A DNA stretch of 64,000 nt from Gammaproteobacteria bacterium (GTDB lineage: Bacteria; Pseudomonadota; Gammaproteobacteria; Steroidobacterales; Foliamicaceae). The translations under genes were made by a program, and so were the position numbers. Position 1 is the first letter of the stretch. Every line of letters begins with the position of its first letter. Positions 14,912 to 36,466 of this stretch are shown one piece after another. Location of the stretch: positions 1 through 64,000 of the forward strand of contig WTGP01000012.1 of assembly GCA_011523505.1 (NCBI GenBank), read 5' to 3'. Under the pieces are notes generated by a model that saw nothing but the letters and a program-made list of their open reading frames with translations, had not been told where the DNA came from and made no database searches.

Positions 14912-16057
14912 TCAGGCGGCCTGGTCGCTCTTTGCTGCGTCCGCGGATTTCGCGGGCACCAGCGGGATGGGGTCGATCACCCAGCCCTTTTTCCTGCGGC
15001 GGCCGGGGCTGGGGATGGCGAACGCGGTATGCTCGCCGGCCTTGCGGACCTTCTCCATGTCGATGCACCAGCCCCGCGCTTCCCATTCCGCGAGCCACTG
15101 GCGGTAGCGGCCCACCGCGTAGTCCGACGGTGTAAGCAGGTCCCTGGTGCTGGCCCGCGGCGCCAGTTTCGGATGCAGCGTAAGCAGAATGTCCCGATCC
15201 TGAAAAGCGACGTACTCATTGCGCTTCTTGACGGTCTCGTCATGCGCTTCGTCCTGCATGAAGTTGCGCATCGTGACCATGTACAGCCCCGTGCGGGTCT
15301 CATGTACGGGCACGCGGTAGAGGTACTGATAGATCTTCATTACCGGCGAGGGATTGATGTGTGTCCACACCGAAGCGGGCCCGTGATGGCCCGTGCCCAC
15401 GGTGATGGTGCTGTTCTTCTCCACTCGTGAGGCTTCCCGCATCCTCCTTTCAGGCAGCGGCGGCGCATAGACCTCGTTGTAGAAACCCGTGCCCCATTCC
15501 GTTTCCCGAATGTCCAGATCGCTTACCTTGTAGTTCTCGTCCTCTCCCTTCATGCCGTGGGTGTCGTGGACGAATTCGTTGTGCGCCGGGTCGATGCCGT
15601 TTTCCACGGCGCGCCTGTATTCAACTTCCCATTCGAAATACTGGAGCGTGGGTTGCCAGCCATCCCGGCCCCATTCGGGAATTTCAAGGATCGGCGGCCG
15701 TTCGGGTTCGTCGAGGTCGCCCAGGAAGCAGAACACCAGCCCGTAACGCTCCGTGACGGGGTAGGAATCTACCCGCGCCCGCCCGGGCGCCTTGGCCTTC
15801 ATGCCGATGGAGGGGACGCGCACGCATTGCCCCTCGCCGTTGAACCGCCAGCCGTGGTACGGACATTGGATGCAACTGTCTTCGACCAGGCCGTCGCCGA
15901 GCGAGCCGCCGCGGTGGCAGCAGGTATTGCTGAGGCAGTGGGCCTGTCCGTCCTCGTCGCGCCACAGCACGAAGTCCTGGCCCAGCATGCGCCTCTTCAG
16001 CGGCGCTCCTTCCAGTTTCCCGGACTCGACCGCGGGATACCAGAAATTGATGAACAT
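14912..16057 (-). CDS. Rieske ring-hydroxylating oxygenase alpha subunit, copy A
   Basis: 381-residue oxygenase component. The Rieske cluster ligands are C46-x-H48 (in NTCCHRGGSLGDG) and C65-x2-H68 (CPYHGW). The mononuclear iron site is in NGIDPAHNEFVHDTHG (D156, H159, H164). The C-terminal catalytic domain follows to about residue 350, then a basic tail (GRRRKKGWVID). It lies 4 bases downstream of a close paralogue, and both proteins end in DQAA. No reductase or ferredoxin gene is nearby, so electrons must come from elsewhere. The substrate (aromatic acid, quaternary amine or other) cannot be assigned. Confidence 0.9.
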   Translation of the reverse strand: MFINFWYPAVESGKLEGAPLKRRMLGQDFVLWRDEDGQAHCLSNTCCHRGGSLGDGLVEDSCIQCPYHGWRFNGEGQCVRVPSIGMKAKAPGRARVDSYPVTERYGLVFCFLGDLDEPERPPILEIPEWGRDGWQPTLQYFEWEVEYRRAVENGIDPAHNEFVHDTHGMKGEDENYKVSDLDIRETEWGTGFYNEVYAPPLPERRMREASRVEKNSTITVGTGHHGPASVWTHINPSPVMKIYQYLYRVPVHETRTGLYMVTMRNFMQDEAHDETVKKRNEYVAFQDRDILLTLHPKLAPRASTRDLLTPSDYAVGRYRQWLAEWEARGWCIDMEKVRKAGEHTAFAIPSPGRRRKKGWVIDPIPLVPAKSADAAKSDQAA

Positions 16058-16061
16058 GGGG

Positions 16062-17207
16062 TCAGGCGGCCTGGTCGGTCTCCACGGCCCGCGCCGGCGT
16101 GGCCGGCATCAGCGGGATGGGGTCGATCACCCAGCCCTTCTTCCTGCGCCGTTCCGGACTCGGTATGGCGAACGCGGTATGGCGTTCCTGCTCGCGAACC
16201 TTGTCCAGATCGATGCGCCAACCGCGCGCCTCCCATTCCTTCAGTCGTTCCCGGTAGCGCCCGATGGGGTAGTCCGAGGGAGTGAACAGTTCCTTGGTAT
16301 TGACCCGCGGCGTGATTTTCGGATGGAGTTCATACAGAACGTCGCGATCCTGGGTCGCCACGTACAGGTTGCGCTCCATCATGGTTTCGTCGTAGATGTC
16401 TTCCAGCATGAAGTTGCGCATGTTGACCAGGAACAGCCGCGTGTTGTCCTCGTCGATCGGCGATTCGTAAAGATACTGGTAGATGTGCATGACCGGAGTG
16501 GGATTGATGAAGGTCCACACGGAAGCCGGGCCGTGGTGGCCGGTGCCGACCCTGATCGTGCGGTTCTTTGTTTCGCCGGAAGCCTCGCGCATCTTCTTTT
16601 CGGCCAGGGGCGGCGCATAGACCTTGTTGAAGAAGCCCGTGCCCCAGTCGGTCTCGCGCATGTCCAGCTCGCGTACCTTGTAGTTCTCGTTCATGCCCTT
16701 CATGCCGTGGGTGGGATGCACGAACTCGTTATGCGCCGGGTCGATGCCGTTCTCGATCGAGCGCTTGTAGTTGAAGTTCCACTCCAATACCTGGAGGGTG
16801 GAGGCCCAGCCTTCCTGGCCCCACTCCTTGATCTCGAGCAACGGCGGCCGTTCCGACTCGTCGAGGTCGCCCAGAAAACAGAAAACCAGGCCGTAGCGTT
16901 CCATGACGGGATAGGAGTCAACCCGCGCCCGCCCGGGCGGCTTGGCCTTCATGCCGATGGAGGGCACGCGTACGCACTGCCCGGCGCCGTTGAATCGCCA
17001 GCCGTGGTACGGACATTGCACGCAGTTGTCGGCCACCAGGCCGTCGCCGAGAGAGCCGCCGCGGTGGCAGCAGGTATTGCTGAGGCAATGGGCCTGACCG
17101 TCCTCGTCGCGCCACAGCACGAAGTCCTGACCCAGCATGCGTTGCTTGAGCGGCTTGTCCTTGAGTTTCTCCGACTCGACCGCCGGATACCAGAAGTTGA
17201 TGAACAT
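16062..17207 (-). CDS. Rieske ring-hydroxylating oxygenase alpha subunit, copy B
   Basis: 381-residue tandem paralogue of the gene 4 bases downstream, identical in length. Rieske ligands are in NTCCHRGGSLGDG and CPYHGW; the mononuclear iron site is in NGIDPAHNEFVHPTHGMKG. The N-terminal 70 residues are nearly identical to copy A, while the catalytic domain differs more, as expected for duplication followed by substrate divergence. It is preceded by an FAD monooxygenase gene on the same strand (48-base gap containing a 17-bp tandem repeat), so the three form a probable catabolic operon. Confidence 0.9.
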   Translation of the reverse strand: MFINFWYPAVESEKLKDKPLKQRMLGQDFVLWRDEDGQAHCLSNTCCHRGGSLGDGLVADNCVQCPYHGWRFNGAGQCVRVPSIGMKAKPPGRARVDSYPVMERYGLVFCFLGDLDESERPPLLEIKEWGQEGWASTLQVLEWNFNYKRSIENGIDPAHNEFVHPTHGMKGMNENYKVRELDMRETDWGTGFFNKVYAPPLAEKKMREASGETKNRTIRVGTGHHGPASVWTFINPTPVMHIYQYLYESPIDEDNTRLFLVNMRNFMLEDIYDETMMERNLYVATQDRDVLYELHPKITPRVNTKELFTPSDYPIGRYRERLKEWEARGWRIDLDKVREQERHTAFAIPSPERRRKKGWVIDPIPLMPATPARAVETDQAA

Positions 17208-17236
17208 GACTGTGCTCCTGGATTACAGGGCACCTA

Positions 17237-17270
17237 GTTTATACCGGAACCTGGTTTATACCGGAACCTG
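17237..17270. repeat. Perfect 17-bp tandem duplication
   Basis: The 17-mer GTTTATACCGGAACCTG occurs twice head to tail (17237-17253 and 17254-17270). It covers the last codons and stop of the FAD monooxygenase gene on the minus strand and the start of the gap to Rieske copy B. The duplication repeats the end of the reading frame, so a second stop-containing copy lies just beyond the used TAA. It looks like a recent slippage event. I see no regulatory logic in it. Confidence 0.9.
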
Positions 17271-18425
17271 CCAGGCGTCGTATCGGAACAGGCCCAGCGA
17301 TTCCTCGTTACGATTGTTGCGTTCGGCGAAGCGTTCCGTGTCCGGGGCAAAGAACCGGTGAATAATTTCCCCGGACTCCAGCATCACCAGCGTGGTGCGC
17401 TCCACGCGGGCGGCCTCGTAGCGCTTAAACGCTTCGGAAACACTGCCGGAATCCGCCATGCATCGCGCCAGCACGACGCCGTCCTCGATCGCCATGACGG
17501 CGCCCATCCCCATGAAGGGCAGGGTGGGATGGGCAGCGTCTCCCAGCAGCGCAACCCGGCCGAGGCTCCAGGACTCGAGCGGCCGCCGGGAAAACAGGCC
17601 CCACTTGTAGCAGAGTTCCGGCGGGGTGGCGCCGATGATCGCGCGCACCAGGCCATGGAATTCCGAAAACTCGTCCAGCACTTCCTTCACGGTCGATCTT
17701 TGCGACCAGCTCTCCACCTGCCAGTCGTCCCGTTCCACGAAAGCGACGTAGTTGACCGTCTCGCCTCCGCGGATGAGGTAGCGCACGAAGAGATGCCCCG
17801 GTCCGATGTATGTGCCCGAGGGCGGGTCCACCGCTTCCGCCGGCACCTTGGCGGCGGGGGCCAGGCCGCGCCAGGCGACGTAGCCGGTGAAATTCGGCGC
17901 TTCCTGCTCGTGCATCTGCGAGCGGACGGGCGACTTCACGCCGTCGCAGCCCACAAGGACCCGTCCGGAAGCGCTGTTGCCGTTGGCGAACCAGGCTGTG
18001 ACGCCGTTCGCGTCCTGGGCAAAGCGCTGGAATTCGTGGCCCAGGACAATGCAATCCGGATCGTTGGCCCGCACGGCGTCACCCAGCATGTCGTGCAGGT
18101 CGGCCCTGTGGATCTGGTAATAGGGTGCGCCGTACTGCCGGGTGGTCAGGTCGCCGCGCTCGCGTCGGACCAGCACCTGTCCCGTCTGATAGTGATGCAC
18201 GGCCTGGTATGAAGGCGGGTCGGCCAGCTCCGCCAGTTCGCTTTCCAGACCGAGTCCCATCAGCGCTTTCGACCCGTTCGGGCTCAGCGTAAGTCCGGCC
18301 CCCACCTCGCCGAGTTCCGGCGCCTGCTCGTACACCTTCACGGCAATGCCGGCGCGCTGCAGGGCGAGCGCGCAGGTAAGGCCGCCGATGCCGGCCCCGA
18401 TCAACATGACGGGCTGCTTGCTCAT
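17256..18425 (-). CDS. FAD-dependent aromatic-ring monooxygenase
   Basis: 389-residue class A flavoprotein monooxygenase resembling salicylate or 3-hydroxybenzoate hydroxylases. The N-terminal FAD fold is MLIGAGIGGLTCALALQRAG with VKVYEQAP, followed by GAGLTLSPNGSKAL; the ribityl-binding motif is GDAAHPTLPFMGMGAVMAIEDG. Such enzymes hydroxylate a phenolic acid with NAD(P)H and oxygen. It is the first gene of an apparent operon with two Rieske oxygenases, pointing to sequential oxidation of one compound class. Its 3' end is modified by the 17-bp duplication. The exact substrate is unknown. Confidence 0.87.
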   Translation of the reverse strand: MSKQPVMLIGAGIGGLTCALALQRAGIAVKVYEQAPELGEVGAGLTLSPNGSKALMGLGLESELAELADPPSYQAVHHYQTGQVLVRRERGDLTTRQYGAPYYQIHRADLHDMLGDAVRANDPDCIVLGHEFQRFAQDANGVTAWFANGNSASGRVLVGCDGVKSPVRSQMHEQEAPNFTGYVAWRGLAPAAKVPAEAVDPPSGTYIGPGHLFVRYLIRGGETVNYVAFVERDDWQVESWSQRSTVKEVLDEFSEFHGLVRAIIGATPPELCYKWGLFSRRPLESWSLGRVALLGDAAHPTLPFMGMGAVMAIEDGVVLARCMADSGSVSEAFKRYEAARVERTTLVMLESGEIIHRFFAPDTERFAERNNRNEESLGLFRYDAWQVPV

Positions 18426-25047: not shown

Positions 25048-27519
25048 ATGAGATTCAGACTTGCCGTTATTTGCGTCCTTGCTGCGGGCGCGATCATTGC
25101 CCCGCGTCCCGCGGTCACGCAGGAAGCCATGCTTGAGGAAATCATCGTGACCGCCCGCAAGCGCGAGGAGTCCGTGCAGGACATCCCGATCGCGGTCAGC
25201 GCCTTTACAGCAAACGACATCCGCGAACTGGGCATCAGGTCCGTTAACGATATTGCGCTCTACACCCCGGGCTTCTCGTTCCAGTCCGGTTTCGGGCGCA
25301 GTTCCAACCAGGACAGGCCGGCCATGCGCGGACAAACCACGATCATTAACGGAATTGCCAACGTGAAGGCGGTGTCCACGTTTGTGGACGGCATCTATGT
25401 GGGCGGCAAGGTTTCGTCCGTCGATATTGCCAACATCGAGCGCGTCGAAATCATCAAGGGCCCGCAATCCGCGCAATACGGGCGGGGCACCTACGCCGGC
25501 GCCATCAACTACGTAACCCGGCGGCCTTCGGAAGAACTGGAAGGCGAAATCACCGTGGGCGGCGCCGAGCACGAATCCTATGAGGTGCAGGGCTGGATCA
25601 GCGGCCCGCTGATTGAAGATACCGCCTGGTTCCGGCTTGCGGCGGGCTACGACCAGTACGGCGGCGAGCACGTCAACACGCTCACCGGTGACGAGGTCAA
25701 CGAGGAAAAAACCACCAACATATCCGGCAAGCTGTTCTTCACGCCCAACGAGCGGTTCGAGGCCACGTTGGCGCTGTCCTACCAGAAGGTGGACGACAGC
25801 CACCCGGCCCTTGCCCTGCAAGCCCGCGAGCACAACAACTGCTGCTTTCGCGGCGAGTCCACCGGAAGCCCGATCATTACCGGCGTGACCGGCCCCAGGG
25901 CGCGCGAGTACTACATTGGCGAGGCCCTGCGCAATCTGCCGGTGGCCCTCAATACCGCGGAACTTGATTCCGACACCGGCGCGGGCAACCGCCTGGATCG
26001 GATTACCGCTTCGCTGACCATGCACTACGACCTGGCCAACGATTGGCGCGTGTCCAGCCTCACCGGCCTGATCGACGACGAGTCCGAAACGGGCCTTGAC
26101 GGAACCTACGGCGGCTACGATTTCGGGGTGGCCTGGGTTAACGGTTACCCGCCTTTCCTGCGTCCCGGCCTGGGCCGGTTATTTTGCGTAACAATCGGCT
26201 TCTGCGGCCAATTCAATCGCATACTTGGCAACGACCAGTCCGACTTCTCCCAGGAACTCCGGCTTTCGTCTCCCTCCGACCGCGCATTTCGGGCCACCAT
26301 CGGCCTCTACTACTACCGGGGCAAGCAACACGAATACCGAGACGACAAGGTGATGACGGAATCGGCCGCGGCCCTCAGCGACCTGTACGGCTGGGGTCTG
26401 GTGGCCAGGACAGTGTCGCCCAACTCCACCATCGACTACGACGACGTCACCAACACGGCCGTTTTCGCTGCCCTCGAATGGGACTTGAGCGACAAGTGGA
26501 CCGCCACGGCCGAGGCGCGCGCCGCGACCGATGAAATAACGCTTGCCGTTTATGAACCCGGCGGGGCAACGCTACGCGGCCGCTACGAAGCCGAGTTCGA
26601 TTCCGTCAATCCAAGATTCACGCTGAGCTACAAGGCGAATGAGAACGCGAATCTGTATCTGAATATCGCCAAGGGTTCCAAGCCCGGCGACTTCAACACC
26701 CAGGTTCCGACCGGCGCGGACGGCAGCCCCGATGAATCCTTCCGCGCCGTGGACGAAGAAGTCGCCTGGAACTACGAAGCGGGATACAAAACGCTGCTGA
26801 TGGACGGCAGGACGGCGCTCAACGTGGCCGCCTATCTGACTGAAGTGACCGACCAGCAGTTCACGACCGTGATCGAGACGCCCACCGGGGGCAGCGCGTC
26901 GCTGCTCGACAACGTGGGCGAGACCCGCGTTGCCGGCCTGGAGGTTGATCTTCAGACGGCGCTGACCGACCAGTTGGTCGTGAATATCGGCTATGCCTGG
27001 ACCAACGCGGAGATTCAGGAATACGTCAATATCGATCAGGCGGACCTTAACGGCGCCAACGGCTCGCGTCGCGACCTGGCCCGCCTTGGCTCGGTGGCAG
27101 GCCAAAAAGTGCCGCGGATACCCGAGCACATGGCCTCTGTGGTGGCGCGCTACAGCGGCAACGCCATGGCGAGTGGCTTTGCCTGGTTCTTCACCGGAGA
27201 CGTCGTTTACGAAGGCTCGCGCTTTTCGCAAATCCACAACCTGATCGAAACCGGTGCGCTCACCCGGGTTGGCTTGCGAATCGGCGTTCGTCGCGACAAC
27301 CTGGAAATCGCTCTTTGGGGCAAGAACCTGTTCGATGACGACACTCCTCTCGACATCCTGCGCTACATCGACCGGCGCTCCGGCGGTTTGCCCAGCCACG
27401 CGCGCATCCCCGGCTATGTCCCCGGCGAACTGGGCAATCCGTCCAGCACCCCGCGCGGCTTCGCCATCTCGCTGCCCCGCGGCCGCCAGATGGGCGTAAC
27501 CGTCACCTACGGTTTCTGA
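25048..27519 (+). CDS. TonB-dependent outer-membrane receptor
   Basis: 823-residue receptor. A signal peptide (about 1-24) is followed by the TonB box region EEIIVTARKREESVQDIPIAVS, a plug domain (about 45-160, with RGQTTIINGIANVKAVSTFVDGIYVG and YGRGTYAGAINYVTRRP), and a 22-strand barrel to the terminal Phe. It belongs to the large group with the VTARKREE box found in marine and aromatic- or steroid-degrading proteobacteria. Ligand unknown. GGGAGG precedes ATG 25048. It lies between a two-component system and a Rieske plus sterol-methyltransferase pair, so sterol-like or other hydrophobic ligands are possible, though siderophore or glycan uptake cannot be excluded. Confidence 0.93.
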   Translation: MRFRLAVICVLAAGAIIAPRPAVTQEAMLEEIIVTARKREESVQDIPIAVSAFTANDIRELGIRSVNDIALYTPGFSFQSGFGRSSNQDRPAMRGQTTIINGIANVKAVSTFVDGIYVGGKVSSVDIANIERVEIIKGPQSAQYGRGTYAGAINYVTRRPSEELEGEITVGGAEHESYEVQGWISGPLIEDTAWFRLAAGYDQYGGEHVNTLTGDEVNEEKTTNISGKLFFTPNERFEATLALSYQKVDDSHPALALQAREHNNCCFRGESTGSPIITGVTGPRAREYYIGEALRNLPVALNTAELDSDTGAGNRLDRITASLTMHYDLANDWRVSSLTGLIDDESETGLDGTYGGYDFGVAWVNGYPPFLRPGLGRLFCVTIGFCGQFNRILGNDQSDFSQELRLSSPSDRAFRATIGLYYYRGKQHEYRDDKVMTESAAALSDLYGWGLVARTVSPNSTIDYDDVTNTAVFAALEWDLSDKWTATAEARAATDEITLAVYEPGGATLRGRYEAEFDSVNPRFTLSYKANENANLYLNIAKGSKPGDFNTQVPTGADGSPDESFRAVDEEVAWNYEAGYKTLLMDGRTALNVAAYLTEVTDQQFTTVIETPTGGSASLLDNVGETRVAGLEVDLQTALTDQLVVNIGYAWTNAEIQEYVNIDQADLNGANGSRRDLARLGSVAGQKVPRIPEHMASVVARYSGNAMASGFAWFFTGDVVYEGSRFSQIHNLIETGALTRVGLRIGVRRDNLEIALWGKNLFDDDTPLDILRYIDRRSGGLPSHARIPGYVPGELGNPSSTPRGFAISLPRGRQMGVTVTYGF

Positions 27520-28849: not shown

Positions 28850-29890
28850 ATGCCGGCGAAACTGCCCACGTCACTGAGGAACGCCTACAGGGGCTGGTCC
28901 GTCGCCAGCCGCGTCGAGTCGTTTGAAGGCTGGCTCGACAGGCGGGAAGGCGGCGACGCCGAAGACCGTGGTTATGACCATGCCGAGACGGTCAATGACT
29001 ACTACTCGCTGTGCAGCGAGTTCATGCAGTTCGGGTGGAACGAATCGCTGCACTTCGCCCCATTGAGGCCGGGCGAAAGCCTTGACGACTCGATCCTCCG
29101 GCATCAGCGGCTCATGATCGGCAAGCTCCGGCTCAAGGAGGGGATGACGGTCATTGACGTGGGGTGCGGAGTGGGCGGTCCGATGCGCCGGGTCGCCCGC
29201 GAGTCCGGCGCCCGCGTCGTCTGCCTCAACAACAACGAACAGCAACTGGAAAAGGCGAAGCGCAGGAACGTTGAAGCCGGTCTTGATCACATGGCGGACT
29301 ACGCCCACTGCAGCTTCATGGACATGAGCAGGTTCGGGCCCGACTCCTTCGACGCGGGCTATGCGATCGAGTCCACCTGCCATGCGCCGGACAAGAAGGG
29401 CGCTTTTGCCGAGATCTTCCGCGTGTTGAAGCCCGGGGCCTTGTTCTGGGGGCAGGAAATGTGCCTGACGAACAAGTTCGATCCGAACAGCGCCCGCCAC
29501 CGGGCCATCGAGCGCGAACTCATGCACGGGATCGCGTTGAACGGGATCGCAACCTTCGCGGAGGTCGATCGGGCGCTGGAGGCGGTGGGGTTCGAAGTGA
29601 TCGAGGGAATGGACAGGGCGACGCAGGAAGATCCGTACACCCCCTGGTATCAGCCTATGGAGGGAGAAACCGGGACGTTCCGGAACCTCCTGCGCAGGAC
29701 GCCTGCGGGCCGGAAGGCCATGATCGGCATGGTGAAGCTCACGGAGGCGGTCGGACTCTTCCCGAAGGGCTCCAACACGGTGGTCCGGCTCATGGACCGG
29801 ACCGCGGAGGCTTACGTTGCCGGCGGCAAGACCGGGATATTCACCCCGCTCTACTGTTTTCTCGCGCGCAAACCAGCGCGGACTGCTTGA
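28850..29890 (+). CDS. Sterol C-24 methyltransferase homologue (ERG6/SMT)
   Basis: 346-residue SAM-dependent methyltransferase matching eukaryotic sterol 24-C-methyltransferases along nearly its whole length. SAM motif I is VIDVGCGVGGPMRR (101-114) with LNNNEQQLEKAK after it. The sterol-binding segments are FGWNESLHFAPLRPGES (61-77; yeast YGWGSSFHF region) and YAIESTCHAPDKKG (171-184; yeast YAIEATCHAP). The C-terminal SMT domain is recognisable in YTPWYQPMEGE, LTEAVGLFPKGSNTV and VAGGKTGIFTPLYCFLARKP. The position of yeast Tyr81 is Met here. It would transfer methyl from SAM to the sterol side chain. Bacterial SMTs are rare. Codon use and GC resemble the neighbours, so any transfer is not recent. 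Confidence 0.86.
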   Translation: MPAKLPTSLRNAYRGWSVASRVESFEGWLDRREGGDAEDRGYDHAETVNDYYSLCSEFMQFGWNESLHFAPLRPGESLDDSILRHQRLMIGKLRLKEGMTVIDVGCGVGGPMRRVARESGARVVCLNNNEQQLEKAKRRNVEAGLDHMADYAHCSFMDMSRFGPDSFDAGYAIESTCHAPDKKGAFAEIFRVLKPGALFWGQEMCLTNKFDPNSARHRAIERELMHGIALNGIATFAEVDRALEAVGFEVIEGMDRATQEDPYTPWYQPMEGETGTFRNLLRRTPAGRKAMIGMVKLTEAVGLFPKGSNTVVRLMDRTAEAYVAGGKTGIFTPLYCFLARKPARTA

Positions 29891-30045: not shown

Positions 30046-31131
30046 TTAGCCTGTGGTGTCGCGCTGGACCCTGACGTGTTGGCCGGGACTGACGAATTCC
30101 TGGCCCACCGTGATCAATGTGACTTCGGCCGGCAATCCGGAAACCCACAGGCCGTCCGGATCTTCCCGGACCACGTCGATCGGGTAGAAGAGAACCCGCT
30201 GATCGTCGTCAACGGCGCGCACGCCCATTTCTCCGTTGGCGTCCAGCACCACGTAGGACATCCCCACCTTGTGCGCCGGCTGGGCATGCAGGGCCACTTC
30301 GACTTCCGCGCTCAACCCCGAGGAAATCGAAAAGTCCGGGTTGGGGACCGTCACTTCGATGGGATAGGTGCGTGACTGGTCCGCCGACTGCTTGCCGATA
30401 AACGTAAGCGAGCCGCGGGCCGTGCCGCCGGTGGCCATCGTGATCCGCACTTCGGCGCCTAGGTCCAGTTGCGGATACTGCTGCTCCGTGACCGCGGCCT
30501 CCACGTAGATCGGATCGAGATCGAGAACGGTGGCGCAGGGGCTGCCCATCTGCAGGTAGTCGCCCACCTCCGCATGCGTCTCTTCCACGAAGCCGGCGAA
30601 CGGCGCAACCACGGCGGTATTCTCAAGTTCCAGTTCGCTGGCCAGGAGCTGGCGGCGCGCTGAACTCAACTGGGCCTTGGCCCGGGCGACCGCGATCTCC
30701 TGCTGCAGGCCCCTTTCGCGCAGGGTCTTCATGCCTTCGTACTCCAGCGTCGCCAGATCGACCGCGTCGCCGGCCTCGCGAACGCGCAGTGCGCGGTCAT
30801 TGACCTCCACCTGGCAAAGCACATCGCCCGCCGACACCTGCGCCCCGATATCGATCGGCCGGTCATCCACGCGGCCGGATGTTTCGGCGCGCACCGTCAC
30901 CGCATGCCGGGTTCGCGTGCGGCCGCGCAGCGTCAGCGTCCTGGATTGTTCCGAAGCTCGGCTGGTTCGTACCCGCACCACGATGTCATCCCGCGCTTGG
31001 GCGCGCGAGGCGACCGACGCCTGCCCGTCGTCGTCGCCGCCGCCCAGAATTCCGGACAGCAGCCATACGGCGCAAACTGCAAGGACCAGCCCGGCCCACA
31101 ATGGTTTGCGCAGGGATTCCCTGATTTTCAT
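30046..31131 (-). CDS. RND efflux periplasmic adaptor (MFP)
   Basis: 361-residue membrane-fusion protein. An N-terminal anchor (about residues 11-29, LWAGLVLAVCAVWLLSGIL) is followed by the lipoyl-type half-motif VRAETSGRVDDRPIDIGAQVSAGDVLCQVE, a short alpha-hairpin (about 115-170), the second half VVAPFAGFVEETHAEVGDYLQMG, and beta-barrel and membrane-proximal domains. It links an inner-membrane RND pump to an outer-membrane channel. It is the last gene of a three-gene operon with the GPP34-P450 fusion (34 bases upstream) and the RND permease; no TolC-like gene is present. The stop lies 4 bases from the palindromic repeat. Confidence 0.92.
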   Translation of the reverse strand: MKIRESLRKPLWAGLVLAVCAVWLLSGILGGGDDDGQASVASRAQARDDIVVRVRTSRASEQSRTLTLRGRTRTRHAVTVRAETSGRVDDRPIDIGAQVSAGDVLCQVEVNDRALRVREAGDAVDLATLEYEGMKTLRERGLQQEIAVARAKAQLSSARRQLLASELELENTAVVAPFAGFVEETHAEVGDYLQMGSPCATVLDLDPIYVEAAVTEQQYPQLDLGAEVRITMATGGTARGSLTFIGKQSADQSRTYPIEVTVPNPDFSISSGLSAEVEVALHAQPAHKVGMSYVVLDANGEMGVRAVDDDQRVLFYPIDVVREDPDGLWVSGLPAEVTLITVGQEFVSPGQHVRVQRDTTG

Positions 31132-31165: not shown

Positions 31166-33208
31166 TCAGAAGTCGTGACGCCTTTTGTCAATGGTAAATC
31201 GAAACTTGCTGTTCGGTGCGCTGGTGGGAAACGGATTGAATCTCATCTCATAGTCCGACGGAACGACGCTGATGTCGAAATAGTAGGCGATCAGGAGCAG
31301 GTTGATCGTCATTTGCAGTTCCACCCATTTCGACCCCAGGCAATGATGCGTCCCGAGCCCGAACGGCACGTATGCTCCCGCGCGCTTGTGCTCGTCCCGA
31401 GGCGGCGCGTAGCGGTCGATATCGAATTTTGTGGGATCGGGAAAAGTCTCTTCCAGGTGGTGCGCGGCGGTGTGCGCAAACACCACGCGAGTGTCCTTCG
31501 GAATGTTGTAGCCCTGCACCACGCAGTGGTTCATGGTGGTTCGAAGCTGCATCGGAATGACCGGATACAGGCGCTGGGACTCCAGGAACACCCGGTGGGC
31601 GACGTCGATCGCGGACCTCGTGAAATCGTCCTTGCCCGGGTCGCCGTTGGCGAACAGCGTTTCGGCTTCCTTCTGAACCCGGCGGTAGATTTCGGGATGG
31701 CTGGCCATGCCGTACACCGCGAAGCTCAGCCCGCTGCCGAGGTAAATGCTGGCGATGAAGCCCGCGACCAGCATGAAGCTCAGATCGGTCTCCGGGAAAT
31801 ACTGGGGATCGCTGGCGTGCAGGCTCAGAATATGATCGACCAGGTCCTTGGGTTTGCCTTTACGCTGCGCCGGCGTGTGCGCATTCAATACCCGGTTGAG
31901 CATCTCGAAAATGCGCTTCCTCTTCCTGGCCATGCCGGGCGTCTGCATCATGAATTTCGGCAGGGCTTTCTGCACTTGCGTGACCAGCGAGCGGTGTTCG
32001 TAGCTGAGGAGATCGTCGATATGGTCCGACGCGTCCACGCCCACCATGAGCTGCGACACCTGAACGCTCATCAGCTCCTGGCATGCGGCGGCGCCTGGCA
32101 TCGGTTGCCCCGGGACCCATTTCTCCAGTGACGCACGGCAGAATTTATATACTTCGTCCAGCCTCGCCTCCAGCGTCGCGCGGGAATAACCGGCGCGCAA
32201 GGACTTTCTCATTCGGTAATGCTCCGTGCCGTCCATGCCGGGCAAGGTCCGCGACGCACCGTACAGTTGCTCGAAGTCGGCCATGTGGTCCCGCGTGCGG
32301 AAATAGGTGCGGCCGTTGCGGTTGATCCATGCGTTGGTGTCCGGGCCGGCAAGCACGACAACGCCCTTTTCCGAGAAAGGCTTCTTGATCCTGAAAACCG
32401 GACCGTATTCCCTGTACAGGTCCGTCAGGATCCTTGAAAGGTTGCCCCGCCTCAGGTTTCGATTCGGAATCAGCTTCAGCAGGTTGGCGACCGGAATCGG
32501 CCGGGTGCGCCCTACGGGCTGCTGCACCGGGCGTCCCTGACTCTCCCTTACAGCCGCGCCGATGGCCCGTCCCACCAGGTCCATTTTGCAGAGCAGATCG
32601 ATGCGCTCGCGCGATTCCTCATACTCTTCTTCGGTGAGCAACAGCGGCAGGGCGTCGCATGCGGCAATCAGGCTGATCAGGATCACATCCCGGGGATCGG
32701 GAATCTCATCGTCCAGGATGGCGCGAAGGACGCGCGTCTTGACCTGCAGTTTGGTCGATCCGTCGTCCGCGGAGTACGTTCCGGTGCGCGATACCTGGCG
32801 GCTCAGGGACCAGAAGCCACCCGAATCGTGGTCCAGAATGTTCTTCTCGACCAGCCGGTCGAGGATGATGTCCATCGCGTCGTCCGATCGCTGCGCGGTC
32901 TTTTCGATCCAGTACTGGGCGTTGTGCACCGGCGGGGGCGCCGAGGCGATTTCCTCCAGCACCGGATCCAGCAGGGGGTCGCCCGTCTCCTTGGCGTCCA
33001 GGAGCGTAAGCGTCTCCGTATCGGTGTCGATGCGGAATTCGAGCGAAAGGTCCGCGAGCACCGAGCCCGCGATCACGCAGGACAGGTTCCAGGCGCCGAC
33101 GGGCTCGAAATAGCCGCTGTCTTCGTTAAGAAGAACCAGGGCCAACTCTTCTGCCAATCTCACAACTACCCCCGCAGTCGAATCAGTTGTCCATAAGACA
33201 CGGGTCAA
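31166..33208 (-). CDS. GPP34 domain-cytochrome P450 fusion
   Basis: 680-residue two-domain protein. Residues about 12-225 match the GPP34 (Golgi phosphoprotein 3) family: LAEELALVLLNED, the hydrophobic helix VIAGSVLADLSLEFRID, TGDPLLDPVLEEIA, RLVEKNILDHDSGGFW and DPRDVILISLIAACD. Eukaryotic GOLPH3 binds PI4P at membranes through this fold. Residues about 245-680 form a P450: K-helix ESQR (near E543), the FDIDRYAPPRDE segment and haem loop FGLGTHHCLG with ligand C623. The I-helix reads AGFIAS where AGxDTT is usual, so the acid-alcohol oxygen-activation pair is missing. It starts one base after the RND permease stop. I infer a membrane-docked oxidase of a lipid substrate; the fusion is unlike any P450 I know. 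Confidence 0.87.
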   Translation of the reverse strand: MTRVLWTTDSTAGVVVRLAEELALVLLNEDSGYFEPVGAWNLSCVIAGSVLADLSLEFRIDTDTETLTLLDAKETGDPLLDPVLEEIASAPPPVHNAQYWIEKTAQRSDDAMDIILDRLVEKNILDHDSGGFWSLSRQVSRTGTYSADDGSTKLQVKTRVLRAILDDEIPDPRDVILISLIAACDALPLLLTEEEYEESRERIDLLCKMDLVGRAIGAAVRESQGRPVQQPVGRTRPIPVANLLKLIPNRNLRRGNLSRILTDLYREYGPVFRIKKPFSEKGVVVLAGPDTNAWINRNGRTYFRTRDHMADFEQLYGASRTLPGMDGTEHYRMRKSLRAGYSRATLEARLDEVYKFCRASLEKWVPGQPMPGAAACQELMSVQVSQLMVGVDASDHIDDLLSYEHRSLVTQVQKALPKFMMQTPGMARKRKRIFEMLNRVLNAHTPAQRKGKPKDLVDHILSLHASDPQYFPETDLSFMLVAGFIASIYLGSGLSFAVYGMASHPEIYRRVQKEAETLFANGDPGKDDFTRSAIDVAHRVFLESQRLYPVIPMQLRTTMNHCVVQGYNIPKDTRVVFAHTAAHHLEETFPDPTKFDIDRYAPPRDEHKRAGAYVPFGLGTHHCLGSKWVELQMTINLLLIAYYFDISVVPSDYEMRFNPFPTSAPNSKFRFTIDKRRHDF

Positions 33209-36200
33209 TCATACGCCGGGAGAGCGGTCCGCGTAACTGTCTCCGCCGCGAAGCCGGACCGGCTTCGGCGCCCTGCTGCGCAGGTCCGTCAGAACACCCG
33301 AGAACATCCCCTTGAGCCGGCTCGGCAGCACCAGCAGCGCCGGCGTCAGGATCAGCGTCAGGATCGTGGCGAAGGTCAGTCCGGACACGACGGCCTGGGC
33401 CAGAGGCACCCAGTAACCCGAAAGCTCGCCTCCGGAGACCCACCTTCGGTTGATGAAATCCACCGATTGATGGCTGGCCAGCGGCAGCAGTCCGATCACG
33501 GTGGTGACGGTGGTGAGAAGCACCGGCCGCAGGCGCTGCAGTCCGGTAAGCACAATGAGTTCGCCGATGTCCCGGTCGGGAAATTCCCTGCGGCCCACGT
33601 TGTAGGTGTCGATCAGCACGATGTTGTTGTTCACGACGATGCCCGCCAGCGACACCACGCCCACCCCGCTCAATATCGCGCTGAACGGCTGGTTGGTGAT
33701 GACCAGCCCCAGAAACACTCCGGCCGTGGACAGCACGATCGCCAGCATGATCAGGAAGCTCTGGTAAATGTTGTTGAACTGCGTGACCAGCAACGCGAAC
33801 ATGAGCAGCAGCGCAAAGGAAAAGGCCTTGGAGAGAAAGTCGATCGACTCTTCCTGCTCCTCGGTCGTGCCGCGGAAGCGGATATCCACCTCCGAATCGA
33901 AAGTCTGGCTGTCCAGCCACGCCTGGATCTCCCGGATCTTGGCGTCCGGCAGCACGCCGGGCGCCACGCCGGCCCGGATCATGTGGATGTCCTCCTGGTC
34001 GGCCCGCTGGATGGTGTCCAGCCGGGGCGTCGCGCGCCGGGTGACGAAATTGGACAACGGCACAGGCCCGTTGCGGGTGACGATCCTCAGGTCGTCGAGT
34101 TCGTTGACGCCGCGGTCTTCGGTCGGGTAGCGGATCCTGATGTCCAGCGCATCGTCCGCGTCATCGGGGCGGTATTCGCCCAGCTTGGCGCCGTTCGTCA
34201 CGAGCTGCGTCGCCAGTCCAACGGTGGAGACGTCGGCGCCGTACAGGCCCGCCACGGCCCGGTCCACTTCCAGTTGCCATTCGATTCCGGGCACGGGAAG
34301 CGTGTCCTCGATGTCCCTCAGTCCTTCGACCTCGTTGACGATGTACTCGCGCACCCTTTCGACCACGGGAACAAGGCGCTCACGCTCATTGGAGGAGAAC
34401 TGCAGGGCGATCGGTTTGCCGGCGGTGATCTGGCTCTCGAACGGCCGCACTTCGATGATCACCCCGCCGAACCTCTCCGTTCGTCGCCGAACTTCCTCCA
34501 GCACTTCCATGCCGGTCGTGTCGCGCTGGCTGCTCTCGACCATCTCGACGAACATGGCGCCGATGCGGTCCGCGGTCGAGCCGCCCTGGTATTGCATCCG
34601 CTGTCCCTGGGCCTGGCCCGCGCCAGTCGTGGTGAACATGTTCAGGTTCTTGATGCCCGGGACCTCGAGGACCGCTGCCTCCACCTCGGCCACCAGCCGG
34701 TAGGCTTCCTCCACGTCCAGGTTGCCGCGGGCGCGCACGAACACCTGGGCGTAGGTGGGGTCGTTCTCGTTGAAGAAAAGCACGCCCAGGTCGCGCGAGC
34801 CATGCACCGTGAATATGCCCAGTACCAGCGCGATCACGATGGCGACCGTGACCAGGGGACGGCGCACGGCCAGCGCAAGCAGGCGGCCGTAGCCGCGCGC
34901 GAAACGGCCCAGCCGCGACCAGTCCAGTTCCCACATGCTGTCCGCGCCCGCCGCCGCCACGGCGGATACGAGGCTTCGGCGCCGGAACGTCGTGCCCAGG
35001 ACCGGGGCGAATATCAACGCGTAGAGCAGCGCTCCGATCAGCACCCACAGCAGGGTAATGGGCAGGTATCCCATGAAGGCGCCGGCCACGCCGGGCCAGA
35101 ACATCAGCGGCACGAAGGCCGCCAGGGTGGTCGCGGTGGAGGCCAGCACGGGCAGGAACATGCGCTTGGCGGCCGCCCCATAAGCCTCAAGTTCGGTTTC
35201 GCCTTCCGTGATTCGCCGTTCGGCATCCTCGGTGACCACGATGGCGCCGTCGATCAGCATGCCCAGACCCAGCAGCATGCCGAACATGACCATGAAGTTG
35301 AACGAGTGGCCGAACAGCCACAGGAAGATCAGCGCGAACAGGAACGAAACCGGGATGGCGCCGGCCACCAACAAGCTGCTCCTCAGGCCCATGGCCGGGA
35401 ATATGACCAGCATCACCAGCACCAGAGCGGTCACGATGTTCCCCTGCAATTCGACGATCTGCTTGGCGGCGAACTGGGACGTGTCCTGGGAATAGAACAT
35501 GTTGACGCCCGCGGGCAGCCGATCGCGGAAACCGTCCGCCACTTCTCGGACCGCGGTTGCCGTTTCGATGCTGTTTGCGCCCGAACGCCGGTACACGAAC
35601 ACCGATATGGAACGCTCGCCGTTGGCGTGGGAGTAGCTGGCCCGGTCCTTGAACGTGCGCCTCACCGAGGCCACGTCGCTCAAGGTCACGACCGTGTCGC
35701 CTTCGATGCGCACCGGAATGTCGAGCAGGTCGTCCGTGGATTCGATGACGCTGGGCACCTTGACCGAGACGCTCCCCTGGGCGGAATCCATCGCGCCCGC
35801 CGCGATCAGCCGGTTGTTGCGCGTCAGCGCCCCGTAGAGCTCCTCCACGGACATCCGGTAGGTCGCGAGCTGCTCCGGCCGGATGAGGATTTCCATGAAC
35901 TCCTCGCGGTGCCCCTGCAGCGCCGCCAATTGCACCTGGCCTACCGTTTCGATCCGGTCGCGAAGGCTGCGCGCGGTGGCGTAGAGAGTTTCCTCCGGTG
36001 TATTGCGTCCTACCAGGTTGATCTGCAGCACGGGGTAGTCGGTGGTCGCGGTCTCCTCGACGATCGGCTCCTCCGTCGTGGACGGGAACTCGGGCTTGGC
36101 CCGATTCACGGCCTCGCGCACGTCGCTCAGTGCTACGTCGAGGTCGATTCCCGTCTGGAACTCCACCCCCACCATGGCCATGTTCTCGGCGCCCGTGCCG

Positions 36201-36466
36201 GTGATTTCCCGGACGCCTTCAACGGCCTTGAGCTCGATTTCCAGCGGCAGGATCAGCAGCCGCCGGGCGTCTTCCGGAGAGATGCCCTCGTGAACGACCG
36301 TGATGACGTAGAACGGGATTTCGATGCGGGGTTCGCTCTCGACCGGGATCGACACGCGCGCGACGATCCCGAAGATCACGATGCCGATCATCGCCAGCAG
36401 CGTGGACCGCCGACGCTCAAGCGATAAATCGATGATCCTGTCTTTCATGCGAAATGGCGCCGCCAC
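33209..36466 (-). CDS. RND-family efflux permease (HAE1-like)
   Basis: 1085-residue proton-driven inner-membrane transporter with the duplicated RND layout: TM1 (TLLAMIGIVIFGIVA), a large porter loop, TM2-6 (about 335-490), TM7 (about 540), a second loop and TM8-12 (about 880-1040). TM4 reads GMLIDGAIVVTEDAERR, so the AcrB Asp pair D407-D408 is D-G here; TM10 has GIVVNNNIVLID where AcrB has Lys940. Start options are GTG 36466 and ATG 36448 (1079 residues); neither has a clear ribosome site. It is the first gene of an operon with the GPP34-P450 fusion and an adaptor. The substrate may be the P450 product; bacterial sterol transport by an RND protein (BstA) is a known precedent. Confidence 0.93.
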   Translation of the reverse strand: MAAPFRMKDRIIDLSLERRRSTLLAMIGIVIFGIVARVSIPVESEPRIEIPFYVITVVHEGISPEDARRLLILPLEIELKAVEGVREITGTGAENMAMVGVEFQTGIDLDVALSDVREAVNRAKPEFPSTTEEPIVEETATTDYPVLQINLVGRNTPEETLYATARSLRDRIETVGQVQLAALQGHREEFMEILIRPEQLATYRMSVEELYGALTRNNRLIAAGAMDSAQGSVSVKVPSVIESTDDLLDIPVRIEGDTVVTLSDVASVRRTFKDRASYSHANGERSISVFVYRRSGANSIETATAVREVADGFRDRLPAGVNMFYSQDTSQFAAKQIVELQGNIVTALVLVMLVIFPAMGLRSSLLVAGAIPVSFLFALIFLWLFGHSFNFMVMFGMLLGLGMLIDGAIVVTEDAERRITEGETELEAYGAAAKRMFLPVLASTATTLAAFVPLMFWPGVAGAFMGYLPITLLWVLIGALLYALIFAPVLGTTFRRRSLVSAVAAAGADSMWELDWSRLGRFARGYGRLLALAVRRPLVTVAIVIALVLGIFTVHGSRDLGVLFFNENDPTYAQVFVRARGNLDVEEAYRLVAEVEAAVLEVPGIKNLNMFTTTGAGQAQGQRMQYQGGSTADRIGAMFVEMVESSQRDTTGMEVLEEVRRRTERFGGVIIEVRPFESQITAGKPIALQFSSNERERLVPVVERVREYIVNEVEGLRDIEDTLPVPGIEWQLEVDRAVAGLYGADVSTVGLATQLVTNGAKLGEYRPDDADDALDIRIRYPTEDRGVNELDDLRIVTRNGPVPLSNFVTRRATPRLDTIQRADQEDIHMIRAGVAPGVLPDAKIREIQAWLDSQTFDSEVDIRFRGTTEEQEESIDFLSKAFSFALLLMFALLVTQFNNIYQSFLIMLAIVLSTAGVFLGLVITNQPFSAILSGVGVVSLAGIVVNNNIVLIDTYNVGRREFPDRDIGELIVLTGLQRLRPVLLTTVTTVIGLLPLASHQSVDFINRRWVSGGELSGYWVPLAQAVVSGLTFATILTLILTPALLVLPSRLKGMFSGVLTDLRSRAPKPVRLRGGDSYADRSPGV

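Follow-up and report, generated by a model that had tools for sequence, protein, structure and literature searches.

Clusters of steroid genes (CSGs) with an ERG24-CYP51-cyclase core have been described in symbionts of Ircinia sponges, in which they have spread horizontally (Kelly et al., 2022; PMC9531527), and bacterial sterol methyltransferases (SMTs) have been reported from sponge symbionts (Brown et al., 2023; PMC10070321). The main text of the former mentions neither a GPP34-P450 protein nor GOLPH3, and its single mention of P450 is in the title of a reference; the main text of the latter mentions no GOLPH3, P450 or Rieske protein. GPP34 (PF05719) is the domain of GOLPH3 and Vps74. The PI4P site of human GOLPH3 consists of W81, R90, R171 and R174, and the R90L substitution alone largely abolishes Golgi localisation (PMC13408441). 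Further, the acidic face of GOLPH3 retains membrane enzymes with basic tails (PMC12494035). Among bacterial GPP34 proteins, the GOLPH3-like SCO4440 of Streptomyces has been described, with no mention of a P450 (PMC12402492).

Here we describe a GPP34 domain joined to a cytochrome P450 in a 64,000-nucleotide stretch of gammaproteobacterial DNA (hereafter the window). The fusion occurs in the same kind of sponge bacteria as the CSGs, also with sterol genes and apparent horizontal spread, but its module lacks the ERG24-CYP51-cyclase core. The SMT beside the fusion is, by homology, the same type of enzyme as those of Brown et al. An earlier note on this DNA knew of no described GPP34-P450 protein, and we found none in the full text of open-access papers.

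The fusion gene

The earlier note had read positions 31166-33208 as one ORF encoding an N-terminal GPP34 domain and a C-terminal P450 with ExxR and haem Cys623. The coordinates proved correct, with the gene on the minus strand, and the following features were recognised.

31166..33208, minus strand: GPP34-P450 fusion gene, 680-aa ORF in a single open frame
33161..33163, minus strand: likely start codon GTG, residue V16 of the ORF ('MRLAEEL...'), from the alignment of 30 homologues and an upstream G-rich stretch
32543..33157, minus strand: GPP34 (GOLPH3-like) domain (Pfam, own-genome search, 3kn1 profile match, 9qpq model match)
31235..32464, minus strand: cytochrome P450 domain (Pfam, Foldseek, VIA-align)
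31733..31753, minus strand: I-helix core ASIYLGS, without the acid/Thr pair, with Tyr489 at 31742-31744 (alignments)
31571..31582, minus strand: ExxR motif ESQR, residues 543-546 (E528-R531 in 665-aa numbering)
31340..31342, minus strand: codon of the haem ligand Cys623 (C608 in 665-aa numbering)

The ORF has 680 residues when counted from TTG 33208 and 665 residues from GTG 33163, which is probably the true start: close homologues start at this position, and it follows a G-rich stretch. Pfam matched both domains far above cut-off: GPP34 at residues 18-222 (E 1.3e-33; 117 bits against a cut-off of 29.1) and p450 at residues 249-658 (E 1.6e-43). The haem-ligand Cys, in an FxxGxxxCxG-type motif, and ExxR were invariant in 30 homologues. 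The AlphaFold2 model of the full-length fusion was confident (pLDDT 87.7, pTM 0.85).

Distribution of the fusion among sponge-associated bacteria

When genomes were scanned for other proteins with both domains, as the earlier note had proposed, 31 loci in named genomes encoded the fusion, although at one of them (L033) a contig end cuts it after the GPP34 part. They belong to seven lineages: Gammaproteobacteria, Alphaproteobacteria, Chloroflexota, Gemmatimonadota, Acidimicrobiia, Dadabacteria and Latescibacterota. Independent records, among them the long chromosome records OX639965, OX638356, OX638350 and OX638332, encode the same one-frame fusion at 41-98% identity, which excludes a frameshift or assembly artefact joining two genes. 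Eukaryotic contamination was rejected, as neighbours and contigs are bacterial, and no plasmid-borne copy covering 80% of the query was found. Within the window's genus seven relatives hold the fusion (partly the same as the named records), as do three genomes of another family of the same order and one further genome (G305) among 369 sampled within the class. What looks like a stand-alone sister P450 in genome G027 lies where contigs C38 and C52 end, and so is most likely another fusion that the assembly broke in two. Separately, an Acidimicrobiia MAG carries a tandem pair of GPP34-P450 genes (L018:7923-12346).

At least 25 of the 31 loci are in MAGs whose names point to marine sponges; this origin was read from the names, and the titles of the other six loci state no host. 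The jk18x MAGs are from Ircinia (PMC9531527), the RHO and CAR sample codes are spelled out in PMC12203066, where SB0677 appears in a sponge context, and a sponge origin of COS and APA was inferred from the species list of PMC8163846. In the fusion tree most phyla each formed one clade. The copies of Chloroflexota and Gemmatimonadota were 71-72% identical, which exceeds the expectation for vertical descent, and we therefore infer from the sequences that the fusion spread horizontally among sponge-associated bacteria. Mean identities of the GPP34 (55%) and P450 (51%) parts were similar and correlated (r 0.75), as expected if both domains travelled together.

The GPP34 domain

The N-terminal domain was modelled confidently (AlphaFold2, pLDDT 90), and the model matched GOLPH3 (9qpq; E 1.6e-8, TM 0.72); Foldseek found nothing significant in the PDB besides GOLPH3 and Vps74. 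A sequence profile likewise matched only GOLPH3/Vps74 in the PDB (3kn1, E 3.5e-10). Thus the profile and structure searches proposed earlier both led to the GOLPH3 fold. Unlike GOLPH3/Vps74, however, the domain is bacterial, stands N-terminal to a P450, is strongly acidic and lacks the PI4P arginines. Hydrophobic or acidic residues replace the equivalents of R90, R171 and R174 throughout the fusion family, so that the four-residue signature of PI4P-binding GOLPH3 proteins is broken, and the domain carries a net charge of -10 to -26, compared with about +1 for the aligned core of human GOLPH3.

The earlier note had proposed a membrane-docked oxidase with a built-in lipid-binding module; on this reading GPP34 would recognise a lipid of the phosphoinositide kind and thereby bring the P450 to the membrane. 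The true GOLPH3 fold would fit such a lipid reader, as would the Trp equivalent to W81, which is mostly kept in the fusion family and lost in Dadabacteria. Phosphoinositide binding is nevertheless unlikely as judged from sequence, in view of the loss of all three arginines and the strong acidity of the domain, and we regard delivery by a lipid as very improbable. The other half of the proposal, a P450 held at the membrane by GPP34, is possible. Given the lost arginines, the acidic domain and the precedent of the acidic face of GOLPH3, we prefer a docking role to lipid reading, and consider the chances about even that GPP34 docks the P450 by protein contact. Charge pairing with the tail of the neighbouring RND transporter was a weak candidate partner interaction, as one of the RND C-termini is acidic and the basic character of the rest is slight.

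Other GPP34 fusions were also observed. In a genome of the same order GPP34 is fused to MFS transporters (L062:5462-7324 and L063:5607-7511), and in the window's genus it precedes a hydrophobic region that has no Pfam match and probably crosses the membrane several times (L059:4284-5570 and L061:5312-6484). These fusions are consistent with GPP34 being a general cytosolic module.

The P450 domain

In structural alignments (Foldseek, VIA-align), CYP184A1, CYP120A1, CYP51 and CYP46A1 matched about equally well, with 16-21% identity across some 400-430 residues. They have the P450 fold in common with the fusion, but the latter has an added GPP34 domain and is far under 40% identity, the customary threshold for a shared CYP family. 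CYP46A1 (cholesterol 24-hydroxylase) was among the nearest folds (Z 35.9, tied with others), in favour of a sterol substrate; its identity to the fusion was 16-18%, and CYP184A1, CYP170A1 and CYP51 fitted almost equally, which counts against that reading. All NCBIfam models stayed below their cut-offs for the fusion, and a PDB sequence search alone did not settle the P450 family. Thus, at the level of sequence, this P450 matches no named CYP family closely.

The common, non-universal I-helix motif AGx(D/E)T(T/S) is replaced in the fusion family by ASx-Tyr-[LVM]-G-[DS], in which the Tyr (Tyr489) is invariant and followed by Thr in one sequence. Compared with stand-alone relatives without GPP34 that keep AGLDT, the segment has lost one residue; the column alignment at this deletion is ambiguous, and no alignment restored the acid/Thr pair. 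The CYP51 signature [AG]Gx[HD]T is also missing; the CYP51-like P450 of the sterol cluster in the window's genome carries AGQHT. The replacement of the acid/Thr pair argues against routine hydroxylation and suggests altered chemistry, such as desaturation, peroxygenation, isomerisation or substrate-assisted oxygen activation.

The shortened, Tyr-containing I-helix, set beside the AGLDT of the stand-alone relatives, might go further and mark a protein that is not a classical monooxygenase at all: an isomerase, desaturase, peroxygenase or haem-based lipid sensor on a P450 fold, which would be compatible with a sterol substrate. We find this possible but rather doubtful, since the haem Cys and ExxR are invariant and some P450 monooxygenases work without the I-helix threonine. 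As a separate observation, a P450 fused to cyclic-nucleotide-binding domains in two stretches (L081:652-3180) also lacks the usual I-helix pair.

Neighbouring genes

The following genes flank the fusion in the window.

33209..36466, minus strand: AcrB-type RND transporter, directly upstream, its stop codon abutting the fusion ORF (Pfam)
30046..31131, minus strand: HlyD/RND periplasmic adaptor, 34 bp downstream of the fusion (Pfam)
28850..29890, plus strand: SMT homologue with Sterol_MT_C (Pfam), one of only two in the genome
27725..28804, plus strand: Rieske oxygenase with a KshA-type C-terminal domain (Pfam)
25048..27519, plus strand: TonB-dependent receptor (Pfam), beside the fusion only in the window's genus

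The Rieske neighbour combines Rieske and KshA_C domains, from which a KshA (3-ketosteroid 9alpha-hydroxylase)-type protein is predicted. Among the scanned neighbours no ferredoxin or reductase was recognised. Elsewhere in the window (14912-18425), two tandem Rieske (VanA_C) oxygenase genes lie beside an FAD monooxygenase-like gene.

Within the fetched 8-kb flanks, an SMT was found at 22 of the 31 loci, a Rieske gene at 14 and an amine-oxidase-like flavoprotein, whose closest solved relative is LkcE, at 16. In the 28 other fusion genomes searched genome-wide, SMT and Rieske genes were each present in 24; 21 of the 24 SMT-bearing genomes have a copy at least 60% identical to that of the window, four had no SMT match, and a few have a second kind only. 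The linked SMTs of Gammaproteobacteria, Chloroflexota, Gemmatimonadota and Acidimicrobiia formed one clade (support 100/100), and the window's copy shares only 44% identity with the SMT that accompanies the cyclase in its own genome. The flavoprotein was present in 22 of the 28 genomes (74-100% identical) and is unusually conserved between phyla, at about 74-86% identity. The window's genome has it (79% identical) on another contig (G000:C34:65346-66695), with no other module genes in the stretch fetched around it. In the long chromosome records the set occupies 3-19 kb, and its placement within 20 kb by chance has a probability of about 1e-4 to 4e-7 per record under a rough uniform model.

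The transporter varies among loci, being AcrB-like of two subfamilies or MMPL. In Gemmatimonadota and Latescibacterota an RND protein of another subfamily lies beside the fusion; the MMPL neighbour in Chloroflexota has Sterol-sensing and Patched SSD matches; and in Dadabacteria and Alphaproteobacteria MMPL occurs together with a LolA-like protein and with another that is probably an outer-membrane protein. Within the window's genus the AcrB-type RND and HlyD genes closely enclose the fusion, all on one strand. This arrangement, with the RND gene of Gemmatimonadota and Latescibacterota, is what would be expected if the P450 oxidised lipophilic sponge metabolites for expulsion by the pump and its adaptor, the sterol genes on the opposite strand being a separate unit. 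Such detoxification is unlikely, as the transporter changes type, including to MMPL with sterol-sensing matches, and the SMT, Rieske and flavoprotein genes recur genome-wide.

Sterol supply in fusion genomes

The window's genome has a cluster comparable to the Ircinia CSGs, away from the fusion. On contig C45, a 1149-aa ORF (L056:8284-11730) combines a squalene-epoxidase-like flavoprotein domain with oxidosqualene-cyclase domains and adjoins the CYP51-like P450; the fusion is on contig C7, so that the ERG24-CYP51-cyclase core is not beside it. The window's genome thus appears, from its gene content, to make its own sterols.

Homologues of this cyclase at 67% identity or more were found in only six of the 31 fusion genomes. 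Alphaproteobacteria and other fusion genomes also have ORFs of 1170-1413 aa that match the cyclase. Seven more genomes had only weaker matches (31-37%), which by sequence are probably hopene cyclases. There was no cyclase match in the seven Dadabacteria fusion genomes, including the 1.59 Mb record OX638332, or in the complete Longimicrobiales chromosome OX638356. L004 and L005, close relatives of the window's genome, likewise had none, so that incompleteness of draft genomes has to be reckoned with. Genomes lacking a cyclase, as the Dadabacteria and the Longimicrobiales chromosome may be, would depend on sterols from the host or from other symbionts.

That these genomes must obtain sterols, together with the KshA_C domain of the Rieske protein and the nearby TonB receptor in the window's genus, raises the alternative that the Rieske protein and the P450 begin the degradation of host sterols as a carbon source. 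We think this improbable, a little more so than detoxification: the module includes a methyltransferase, which adds carbon, the window's genome appears to make its own sterols, and no ring-cleavage gene set was recognised in the flanks examined.

Discussion

The fusion is an unusual P450 fusion protein, probably of bacterial sterol tailoring, conserved across phyla in a sterol-gene context. Our preferred reading, to which we give a probability of roughly 60%, is that it is the P450 of a horizontally spread sterol-tailoring module, with GPP34 as a docking adaptor. The module would comprise GPP34-P450, SMT, the KshA-like Rieske oxygenase, the amine-oxidase-like flavoprotein and an RND or MMPL transporter, and would have spread horizontally among bacteria of marine sponges. 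The two-domain enzyme, with its N-terminal GOLPH3 fold and C-terminal P450, would oxidise a sterol of the cell's own making or of host origin, in coordination with the methyltransferase and its alkylation of C-24. GPP34 would act as the acidic face of GOLPH3 does in holding the basic tails of membrane proteins. A P450 that is itself soluble would thus stay close to its partners and to the inner membrane, in which the substrate is dissolved.

We propose a sterol role because sterol-modifying genes adjoin the fusion across at least seven lineages. A sterol is the likely substrate, and action on its side chain is suggested more tentatively; that the P450 creates the side-chain double bond needed by the C-24 methyltransferase is speculative. 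Probably, the fusion helps symbionts to alter sponge or self-made sterols. A bolder version is tentative: a new P450 family with altered oxygen activation and a GOLPH3-like adaptor to membrane partners might form the core of a sterol-remodelling pathway shared horizontally among sponge symbionts, including bacteria with no cyclase match that would rework host sterols.

Bacterial GOLPH3-like proteins have almost no assigned function, and a conserved enzyme fusion is a strong clue to a scaffold or docking role at membranes. Further, three more genes can now be named that travel with SMTs in sponge bacteria. Who makes and edits the unusual sterols of sponges, and hence how 24-isopropylcholestane is to be read, becomes testable through a small gene set. 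If the proposal is true, the remodelling pathway could contribute to the unusual sponge sterols that are used as molecular fossils.
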